Assembly: GCA_019638075.1 (NCBI GenBank)
Contig: JAHBUM010000005.1
Span: 1-36,805, forward strand
DNA from: Flavobacteriales bacterium
Lineage (GTDB): Bacteria; Bacteroidota; Bacteroidia; Flavobacteriales_F; PHOS-HE28
Length of the DNA stretch: 36,805 nucleotides
Direction: 5' to 3'
Below the pieces are notes generated by a model. That model saw only the letters and a list, made by a program, of their open reading frames with translations, ran no database searches and was not told the DNA's origin. Position numbers and translations under genes: made by a program. Numbering within the stretch: the first letter of the stretch is position 1; each line of letters begins with the position of its first letter. Of the stretch, positions 23,883 through 26,248 are shown piece after piece.

Positions 23883-24219
23883 CTATTTGCGATACGAGGC
23901 GGGTGGCGTGGTGAGGGAGGCTCAGTTGTCAGTTATCAGTTGTCAGTTGTCAGGAATGCCTTCTGCCGTGGCTTCTGCACGAATACCACCCAGCAGCCAT
24001 GCCTCATGCCTACGGCAGACAAGTCCGGCCTTGCTTCGCCGTAGCGGCTACCGTGCCTGCGCGTAGCCGCTTCGGCGAAGGCAAGGCACGCAGGCACAGC
24101 AGGCAGGTGCCCATGAAGAAGCCATGCCTACGGCCTTGCTTCGCCGTAGCGGCTTCGCGAAGGCACAGCAGGCAAGCCTGACAACCGGCAACTGACAACC
24201 GACAACCACCTCCCTCACC
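23883..24219. repeat. Repeat island E6: nested inverted repeats reaching into the HU-like/SPOR stop codon
   Basis: The gap of about 390 bp is almost all repeat. An outer perfect pair, GGTGAGGGAGG at 23910-23920 and its complement at 24209-24219, includes the TGA of the HU-like/SPOR gene. Inside are AGTTGTC heptamers on the left (23922-23954) and their inverse on the right (24178-24207). A 24-bp near-perfect hairpin lies at 24028-24051/24063-24087, with TTCGCCGTAGCGG-type units. A 23-bp exact direct copy of 24027-24049 lies at 24132-24154. The first 21 nt (23883-23903) resemble 3560-3580 in island E1. Confidence 0.85.
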
Positions 24220-25237
24220 GCACCAGCAACCACGCCTGTCCCACGCCATCGCGGCGCACGGAAGCCAGCGCCTCCAAGGCCTCCTGGCGATCGGCATAGC
24301 TGCCGTAGGCCACGGGGTGCAGCTCGCCGTAGCGGGGCAGTCGCGTGGCATGGTAGCCCTTGTCCTGCAATTCCTTCAGCAGGCGCTCGGCGTTCTCAGG
24401 CTGCGCAAAACAGCCACCCACCACGTGGAAACGCAGGCGCATCGCGGACTTCGCAGTGATCGCCACGGCGGTGGTGTCAGCGGGTGCCTCACCGAGGTCC
24501 ACCGTAAGGGAAACGCTGTCGTTATCGGTGAGTGGCAGGGTCTGCACACCGAAGCTGCCTTCGGGCAGCGCGAACACCGATGCGCGGGCCTGCATGGCAG
24601 GTACCGGCTCTGCGCTGGGGCTGTAGGTGGCCGCAGGGCGCGGGCCGAACGCGAAGGCATCGGTGCCGCCGTTGAGGCCGATGTAGCCGATCACCGCGCC
24701 GCTGGCGAGCAGCAGGGCCACCGCCGCGGCTGCGGCCCAGTTGCGCGAGCGCGGCTGCGGCACCGGCGCGGCAGGCAGCGGTGTCGGCAGCGGGATCACG
24801 CGCGGTTCTGCGGCGATGCGCACCACGGGTGTGGCGGCAACGGGGCGCAGGCCGAAGGCTTCCTTCAGGAAATTGGCCCGGTCGTCGGGGTCGAACTGCA
24901 GGTTGCGCTGCACATCGCGGTAGAAGATGCCGATGCGCGGGATCTCCACGCGGCCCGTGGCGTCCAGTTGCTCGCGCCACACACCCACTTCCCGGTCTAT
25001 CAGCGCGTTGGCCGCTGCGAACCCGATGCCATCGCGCTGGGCAAGGTGGTCGGTGAGCAGGCCATCGTTGCGCAGCAGGTGGCGGTTGAAGCCGACCTCC
25101 TTGCTGGGCGGATGGATCAACTGCCGCGTCTCGTCCAAGCGGGCCGGGCGGTATTGCGCCAAAAAGCCGCCCCAGCCGGGCACGATCACACAATCGTGTT
25201 CGAAAAGCAGATGATGAAGGTCGCGTTCGAGGCCCAT
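24215..25237 (-). CDS. HU-like (CCDC81-type) and SPOR domain protein
   Basis: The protein has 340 residues. The N-terminal part MGLERDLHHLLFEHDCVIVP, then GWGGFLAQYRPARLDE, and a second similar module (VWREQLDATGRVEIPRIGIF) match the HU-like DNA-binding-fold domains found in Bacteroidota HU-CCDC81-SPOR proteins. A Pro-rich stretch precedes one TM helix at about 177-197 (WAAAAAVALLLASGAVIGYI). The C-terminal SPOR domain (about 265-340, FHVVGGCFAQPENAERLLKE) binds denuded peptidoglycan. The protein is probably a cell-division or envelope factor linking cytoplasm to septal wall. The start at 25237 is the conserved N-terminus; the longer frame is repeat-derived. Confidence 0.88.
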   Translation of the reverse strand: MGLERDLHHLLFEHDCVIVPGWGGFLAQYRPARLDETRQLIHPPSKEVGFNRHLLRNDGLLTDHLAQRDGIGFAAANALIDREVGVWREQLDATGRVEIPRIGIFYRDVQRNLQFDPDDRANFLKEAFGLRPVAATPVVRIAAEPRVIPLPTPLPAAPVPQPRSRNWAAAAAVALLLASGAVIGYIGLNGGTDAFAFGPRPAATYSPSAEPVPAMQARASVFALPEGSFGVQTLPLTDNDSVSLTVDLGEAPADTTAVAITAKSAMRLRFHVVGGCFAQPENAERLLKELQDKGYHATRLPRYGELHPVAYGSYADRQEALEALASVRRDGVGQAWLLVR

Positions 25238-25255: not shown

Positions 25256-25284
25256 GCGGGGAGGAAGGGAAATGCAGTAGCTCA

Positions 25285-25380
25285 GAGTAGCGAGTGGCGA
25301 GTAGGCGAGTGGCGAGTACCGCGTGATGGAAGCTGCGGTACTCGCCACTCGCCTACTCGCCACTCATGTCCTCGCTACTC
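25285..25380. repeat. Repeat E7: perfect 31-bp hairpin containing the kdsB stop codon
   Basis: Units of GAGTGGC/GAGTAGGC run from 25285 to 25322, and the exact reverse complement of 25292-25322 is at 25335-25365, leaving a 12-nt loop. An outer GAGTAGC unit is matched at 25374-25380. The kdsB stop codon (25364-25366) lies at the base of the stem, and the last kdsB codons (RVART) are themselves written in the repeat unit. No U-tract follows the stem. Confidence 0.9.
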
Positions 25381-26119
25381 TCCTCCTTGCTTCCTCCAGA
25401 TCGGCCGGGGTGTCCACGCAGAACGAAGGGTGTTCCGTAAGGCCCACGCGCACGTTGTAGCCGTTCTCCAACCAGCGCAACTGCTCCAGCGATTCGGCCA
25501 GTTCGAGGCTTGACGGGCTGAGCTTCACCAGGTTGGCGAGCACATCGGCACGGTAGGCGTACAGGCCGATGTGCTTCAGGAAGCGGAACGCCGTGTGGCG
25601 CGGGCCGGTGGTGTGGTTGCGCAGCACGGGGATCGCCGCGCGGCTGAAATACAGGGCATCGCCATGGATGTCGGTGGTGATCTTCACCTTGCCGGGATCG
25701 TCGAGATCGCGGTCGTCGGTGAGGTGGTGCGCAAGGGTGGCCAGTCCGCCGGGGGCTGCGGCCAGCGTAGCGCACAATTCGTCGATCTGCGCAGGCACGA
25801 GGAAGGGTTCATCGCCTTGGATGTTCACCACGGCATCGAAGTTCTCCGCCCCCATCAATGTCAGTGCCTCGTGGCAGCGGTCGGTGCCGCTGGGGTGTTG
25901 TGTGCCGGTCATCACCACGCGGCCACCGGCAGCGGCCACATGGTCGAAGATGCGTTCATCATCCGTGGCCACCACCACTTCATGCAGCGCGGTGGCCTGT
26001 TGCGCGCGGTCGAGCACACGCAGGATCATGCTGCGGCCACCGATGTCGGCCAGCGGCTTGGCGGGCAGGCGGGTGCTGGCGTAGCGGGCGGGGATGATGC
26101 CGAGGATGCGGAGGCTCAT
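25364..26119 (-). CDS. kdsB: 3-deoxy-manno-octulosonate cytidylyltransferase (CMP-KDO synthetase)
   Basis: KdsB activates KDO with CTP to form CMP-KDO for lipopolysaccharide core synthesis in the cytoplasm. The protein has 251 residues. The nucleotide-binding start LRILGIIPARYASTRLPAKP is typical. The family motifs VVVATDDERI, MTGTQHPSGTDRCHEA, VNIQGDEPFL and FRFLKHIGLYAYRADVL are all present. The C-terminus (FCVDTPADLEEARRRVART) is normal up to the last five residues, which are encoded by a GAGTAGC repeat unit. The start at 26119 is within a duplicated 34-bp segment. Presence of kdsB and a heptosyltransferase-like gene points to an LPS-bearing outer membrane. Confidence 0.95.
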   Translation of the reverse strand: MSLRILGIIPARYASTRLPAKPLADIGGRSMILRVLDRAQQATALHEVVVATDDERIFDHVAAAGGRVVMTGTQHPSGTDRCHEALTLMGAENFDAVVNIQGDEPFLVPAQIDELCATLAAAPGGLATLAHHLTDDRDLDDPGKVKITTDIHGDALYFSRAAIPVLRNHTTGPRHTAFRFLKHIGLYAYRADVLANLVKLSPSSLELAESLEQLRWLENGYNVRVGLTEHPSFCVDTPADLEEARRRVART

Positions 26120-26248
26120 GGCGGTCACAGATTCAGGCTCAACTGCGTCGGCAGTTATCAGTTGTAGTGGTTGTCACTGCGAGCGAAGTGAAGCAGAGTT
26201 GTCAGAATGCTTCCGGCTCATGCGTGTCACAGGTTCAGGCTCAATTGC
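26113..26248. repeat. Repeat E8: inserted 68-nt core flanked by diverged 34-bp direct repeats
   Basis: Two 34-nt segments, 26113-26146 and 26215-26248, agree at 29 positions (both start GGCTCATG and contain TTCAGGCTCAA). The first includes the kdsB start, the second the last codons of the TonB receptor. Between them lie AGTTGTC-like units (26150-26165, 26197-26205) and GTCACTGCGAGCGAAGTGAAG at 26173-26193, a string resembling dispersed repeats common in bacteria. The layout suggests an insertion that duplicated the ancestral gene junction. Confidence 0.75.

Follow-up and report, generated by a model that had tools for sequence, protein, structure and literature searches.

A hairpin of GAGTRGC-like heptamers overlapping the kdsB stop codon belongs to a dispersed palindromic family that also occupies reading frames of conserved proteins

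Rickettsia palindromic elements are in-frame palindromes in conserved proteins, where they are tolerated; to our knowledge they contain no heptamer runs, and by their descriptions they differ in sequence and size from the GAGTRGC family reported here. According to the available part of PMC6649704, these elements lose arm identity over time, and template switching is proposed there for coding palindromes; template switching between inverted repeats homogenizes their arms and changes proteins (PMC8604942, available text). Tandem heptamers are described from Xanthomonas, where, in the accessible sections of PMC4692102, GGGANTN repeats are degenerate, often form two inverted convergent arrays able to form a hairpin, and lie in intergenic DNA at a mean of 28 nt past the upstream gene with few in divergent gaps. 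The same sections place them mostly at the same position across species, with length changed. REPs also follow genes, supply TAG stops, and have copies within genes, for example DnaE2 (PMC3733652, in the part available). A search of titles and abstracts returned no report of a GAGTRGC-type hairpin, which is no proof of absence.

The hairpin analyzed here lies in a window—the whole stretch of DNA studied—of 36,805 nucleotides from a Flavobacteriales bacterium (GCA_019638075.1, contig JAHBUM010000005.1), with the following features:

24215..25237, minus strand: next downstream gene, encoding two HU-CCDC81 domains and a SPOR domain (domain search)
25260..25267, plus strand: GGAGGAAG, complement of CTTCCTCC at 25390-25397 (kdsB codons); extension of the palindrome
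25284..25291, plus strand: far-side outer GAGTAGC unit
25292..25322, plus strand: second stem arm (3' arm in the kdsB sense)
25323..25334, minus strand: 12-nt loop AGCTTCCATCAC, a member of the CCATCA loop family common to other copies in the same genome
25335..25365, minus strand: stem arm (5' arm in the kdsB sense), GAGTGGC GAGTAGG C GAGTGGC GAGT ACCGC
25364..25366, minus strand: kdsB stop TGA, overlapping the stem base, with GT next (TGAGTGGC)
25364..26128, minus strand: kdsB (3-deoxy-manno-octulosonate cytidylyltransferase), from the ORF list; Pfam CTP_transf_3, E 8.7e-54
25366..25373, no strand assigned: 8-nt bulge on one side of the stem (minus-strand sequence GAGGACAT), which breaks the pairing of the outer unit
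25374..25381, minus strand: outer GAGTAGC unit encoding part of RVART, complementary to 25284-25291

The geometry anticipated by the original prediction was borne out: the 31-nt arms (25292-25322 and 25335-25365) are 100% complementary around a 12-nt loop, and the kdsB TGA (25366-25364, minus strand) overlaps the outermost stem pair. Because the TGA is followed by GT, the kdsB stop and the first arm unit have bases in common. Pairing exceeds this stem, with eight further pairs (25284-25291 with 25374-25381) past the 8-nt bulge at 25366-25373 and an additional outer stem (25260-25267 with 25390-25397) that takes in kdsB codons. The final codons (aga gta gcg agg aca, encoding RVART) do traverse GAGTAGC at 25374-25380 on the minus strand, as had been proposed; the accompanying view of GAGTAGC as the repeat unit did not hold, the arms being mostly GAGTGGC and GAGTAGG, with GAGTAGC as the outermost unit only. 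The predicted fold of the kdsB strand has an energy of −100.7 kcal/mol, whereas shuffled sequences average −51.75 (z = −12.0; 0/200 shuffles as good), and no terminator match was found at the hairpin. Plain GAGTAGC is not enriched in the window (3 found versus 1.94 expected); unlike that heptamer, the hairpin and its genome-wide family are beyond chance.

The kdsB hairpin belongs to a family of dispersed elements with arms built from successive GAGTRGC-like heptamers. Across the genome that contains the window (G000; 3.32 Mb, 380 contigs), a unit pattern allowing mismatches matched at 35 places on the plus strand and 28 on the minus strand, and the reversed control pattern at none. Extraction of elements from the window, 20 G000 stretches, and 40 stretches of relatives around such places yielded 61 inverted elements whose perfect stem is 7 or longer (12 or longer in 55 of them), together with 8 clusters lacking such an inverted repeat. 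The hairpin pattern occurs in 18/45 genomes of the genus, with the highest counts in G000 (29) and G042 (27), counted per strand with overlapping matches included. A stricter array pattern occurs in 19/98 genomes including G000, all of the same genus, and in 0/53 outside it.

Several further forms were observed. Many heptamer hairpins have at their tip a second type of apex, based on CTCCGAGCGAAGCCGAGGAG; an exact match to the 20-mer is present in 9/311 loci, and copies in the window's own genome include L087:5741-5818, L088, L092, L095, L100, L103, and L104. Relatives also carry long one-sided GAGTGGC/GAGTGGG arrays with no partner arm, up to about 500 bp (L231:2408-2925, L254:2382-2569). At a single gene junction, which we take from the peptides to be paaA-paaB, a heptamer hairpin is present in several genomes with arms and loop changed (L102, L117, L251). 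A phage or plasmid vehicle was considered and rejected, the 97-nt element having no match in phage and plasmid collections at E 0.01.

Element positions relative to genes were measured on calls from a codon model trained on the window, which missed the coding copy at L242. Gene 3' ends facing an element lie at a median of 9 nt from it (n = 44; 30 within 15 nt and 11 overlapping), and gene starts facing an element at a median of 39 nt (n = 38). Six genes have C termini written by the array, such as GRVASGE, KGVASSE, and KKVASDE. Stops of the form GAG-TAG/TAA/TGA, or TGA directly followed by GT, terminate 16/39 facing ends within 60 nt versus 18/247 others (P = 2.8e-7), a comparison in which some of the 16 are mutually orthologous (L226, L227), so that events are fewer than counts. 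Overlap of arrays elsewhere with stop codons, which had been suggested as a check on the kdsB locus, was found. Elements are depleted from divergent gaps (4/40 versus 42/143, P = 0.013, with L242 counted as coding).

Seventeen elements lie within open frames of conserved proteins, identified by family search and, for L229, L233, L253, and L259, by orthology:

LpxB: L089, L240, L242
RadA: L096
LdcA: L099, L229, L233, L253, L259
WbqC-like protein: L222, L235
RsgA: L232
DnaE: L237, L239, L249
IcmF: L256
Glycosyltransferase: L236

GAGTGGC is stop-free in every phase on both strands, and the predicted peptides of the in-frame inserts are EWRVASG and LATRHSP. The LdcA insert falls between two Pfam domains (the first ends at 163, the second begins at 233), and the RsgA insert occupies 31 residues where the solved homologue 1u0l has 5; for DnaE, the alignment shown against the PDB ends before the insert. 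In ldcA, the gap is a multiple of 3 in all 26 loci read (of 30); 9 of these gaps contain GAGTRGC palindromes and 4 others contain palindromes of a different unit, scored by eye. Mapped on the KdsB tree, ldcA insert origins require 3 changes versus a shuffled mean of 3.6. The insert may reflect one old event followed by losses, in which case the evidence on site choice comes from fewer events than there are loci.

Palindromes of other units were also seen in coding DNA. The ldcA linkers of G009, G044, G010, and G007 (L290, L293, L294, L295) carry GGGCCAC-like and GGTTGCC-like palindromes. GGGCCAC hairpins, to which the ldcA insert in G009, G010, and G044 had pointed, were tried as a second family and rejected, the pattern occurring in 0/45 genomes. 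IcmF of G008 (L256:991-4554, residues ~740-780) appears to hold a second palindromic insert of another unit (NGEWSMANGG...SHSPTPIHHSP).

The two arms of an element resemble each other more than they resemble arms elsewhere. Exact-run sharing within a locus reached 502 in the window's own genome against a maximum of 392 in 10,000 permutations with shuffled partners, and 613 versus 534 with shuffled partners in relatives, for elements preselected to have a perfect stem of 12 or more and hence biased toward similarity. When nine copies of the own-genome apex family were aligned, pairing held in 99.3% of cells, and three pairs contained 10 double-change cells (0/500 shuffles). Six equal-length ldcA orthologues show three covarying pairs, with both encoded peptides altered. 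The original prediction took perfect pairing to mean either recent origin or active maintenance; these paired changes fit maintenance better than recency alone. If RNA pairing were selected, G-U mismatches would be expected to exceed A-C mismatches, whereas the 44 oriented elements contain 22 GU, 37 AC, 48 transversions, and 60 gaps. Paired changes without wobble bias favor copying between arms at the DNA level, although selection on RNA would also yield covariation and the missing wobble bias, over 59 transition mismatches, is the sole discriminator.

How the repeat came to kdsB was addressed by comparison with relatives. KdsB is present in 96/98 genomes, and a GAGTRGC unit is found at the end of kdsB in 0/44 genus mates, which indicates that the repeat entered; the core and loop of the kdsB copy have near copies at three further sites in the genome (two at C57, one at C68). 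Between growth out of the gene's own 3' end and entry, the two origins originally proposed, the evidence thus sides with entry. It does not side with the added proposal that the last codons were simply replaced: KdsB ends in [RQ]RVA plus more residues in 8/44 relatives, always in other bases, so that the window's KdsB retains about its ancestral length and part of its residues. In RVA, native residues may persist with their codons rewritten. Relatives encoding the same five C-terminal residues with the same bases had been named as evidence against a link to the repeat; G021 ends in RVANT, and RVA ends are all written in other bases. Downstream, the leader CTATCTTGCACGCC of the 24215..25237 gene is unchanged relative to close relatives. 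Terminal inverted repeats of a known transposase and a target-site duplication would mark a MITE; at kdsB, divergence of the flanks from those of relatives obscures any duplication.

Beyond the documented dispersal, sites, and reading frame of the family, we consider it likely that the hairpin is a non-autonomous, dispersed palindromic element, tolerated at harmless sites and with its arms kept matched by DNA template switching. The element consists of GAGTRGC-like heptamer arms around an apex of a few types. One copy reached the exact kdsB stop in this lineage, where it now supplies that stop with KdsB length about unchanged; other copies sit a few nucleotides from stops or in frame in loops of conserved proteins. 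These sites may be tolerated because a stop-poor, easily translated palindrome would do little harm there. During replication one arm would template the other, as the paired changes without wobble bias suggest, and the RNA hairpin would not itself be the selected thing. The kdsB copy probably has no function of its own, and its outer stem possibly grew in place after entry.

Alternatively, the palindrome could have arisen at its present site out of native kdsB codons through template switching, no copy having come in: the native RVA codons of relatives are GTGGCG-like, near the heptamer, and the outer stem pairs kdsB codons with the 3' flank (GGAGGAAG). A core and loop common to both C57 copies and the C68 copy, and identical units at dozens of unrelated genes, make this origin very unlikely. 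A functional RNA element—a terminator or 3' mRNA stabilizer whose pairing is under selection—would account for the very stable fold, the position just past stop codons, and the depletion from divergent gaps. It is nonetheless unlikely, given that TTTT within 25 nt downstream is found at 0/37 elements, the kdsB hairpin matches no terminator, wobble pairs are not in excess, 17 copies lie within reading frames, and the element is missing from the kdsB end in 44/44 relatives. The G-U counts, the T-tract result, and the copies in reading frames likewise speak against the stalling of nucleases or ribosomes that had been predicted for the stem, as far as sequence patterns can indicate an RNA-level role.

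The remaining alternative, a REP/REPIN proper moved by a RAYT transposase, has the same habits on its side: intergenic placement by stops in co-directional or convergent gaps, stops supplied by the repeat, and copies in DnaE-type genes (PMC3733652, in its available part). Y1_Tnp matches are also present in 33/45 genomes, with 3 in G000. Yet a family array lies near 0/28 Y1_Tnp loci, with only single unit pairs at four; hairpins occur in 15/33 genomes with Y1_Tnp and 3/12 without (P = 0.31); and the arms are heptamer runs of variable length instead of a single tagged 20-40 bp hairpin. An association between RAYT and hairpins hinted at by the stricter array pattern was gone with the hairpin pattern. 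We therefore regard a RAYT-moved REP as improbable and retain the non-autonomous element with template-switched arms.

A scan of named genomes returned at least 109 stretches with hairpins of this form. The matches listed include Flavobacteriales, Saprospiraceae, Chloroflexi, Acidobacteria, Planctomycetota, Kuenenia-named, and other records, many of them metagenome bins with uncertain taxon names. Among the matches listed, frames spanning the element encode an Lhr-type helicase (L141), a PSD1/DUF1553 protein (L175), and a histidine kinase (L181), in which HATPase_c covers 133 residues versus 108 profile positions. L130 (a 1075-aa frame) was dropped as a cross-phylum case after a Pfam search found nothing. 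In Pseudonocardia (L114-L116, L125, and others), a palindrome of 36 bp and fixed sequence (CCGTGAGTGGCGAGTG...) recurs close to gene ends and seems to form its own family; the Pseudonocardia and Nanopelagicales matches look like other fixed elements and were left out.

We put forward tentatively, as a possibility somewhat short of even, that heptamer-armed coding palindromes form a general, unrecognized class of small dispersed DNA across many phyla, in which arm switching, not selection, shapes stretches of conserved enzymes. If so, a translation-tolerant unit would let a palindrome persist inside genes, encoded as EWRVASG/LATRHSP peptides, and the two peptides would be rewritten jointly by template switching that goes on continually between the arms. 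The occurrence of the same heptamer both in Bacteroidota and in Kuenenia-named records (Lhr-type helicase, histidine kinase, PSD1) would then imply that it spread horizontally or has a shared mover, raising the question of what spreads a palindrome with no evident transposase through several phyla. Many natural cases with orthologues would make concerted arm change readable both in DNA and in two peptide stretches per protein, and template switching between inverted repeats would become measurable in bacteria over species time.

Set against described systems, the GAGTRGC family resembles the Xanthomonas GGGANTN repeats in its tandem heptamer runs and inverted pairs near gene ends. The Xanthomonas unit is G-rich and studied as quadruplex-forming, whereas GAGTRGC has no run of three G; the family further differs from those repeats, as the available text presents them, in its frequent in-frame copies in conserved genes and in the arm co-evolution tested here. 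With GTAG/CGTC REPs and REPINs it shares a location at 3' ends, few copies in divergent gaps, supplied stops, and intragenic copies (PMC3733652, available part). Unlike them, it has no single 20-40 bp hairpin with an unpaired GTAG or CGTC tag and no flanking or cognate RAYT (arrays at 0/28 Y1_Tnp loci; hairpin and Y1_Tnp presence not associated over the 45 genomes). The family thus has the habits of known palindromic repeats but lacks the tag and RAYT of REPs, and the T-tract past the stem that marks an intrinsic terminator is seen at 0/37 elements, and none follows the kdsB hairpin. In Nematomorpha mitochondria, perfect palindromes also occur in coding DNA and template switching is proposed; there, in the available part of PMC6649704, both arms encode conserved native protein, whereas the GAGTRGC palindrome is an added insert. 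As in the Rickettsia palindromic elements, in-frame palindromes are found in conserved genes (17 elements; 26/26 ldcA gaps in frame), but where the same part of that source describes arm identity as lost in Rickettsia, the GAGTRGC arms co-vary.
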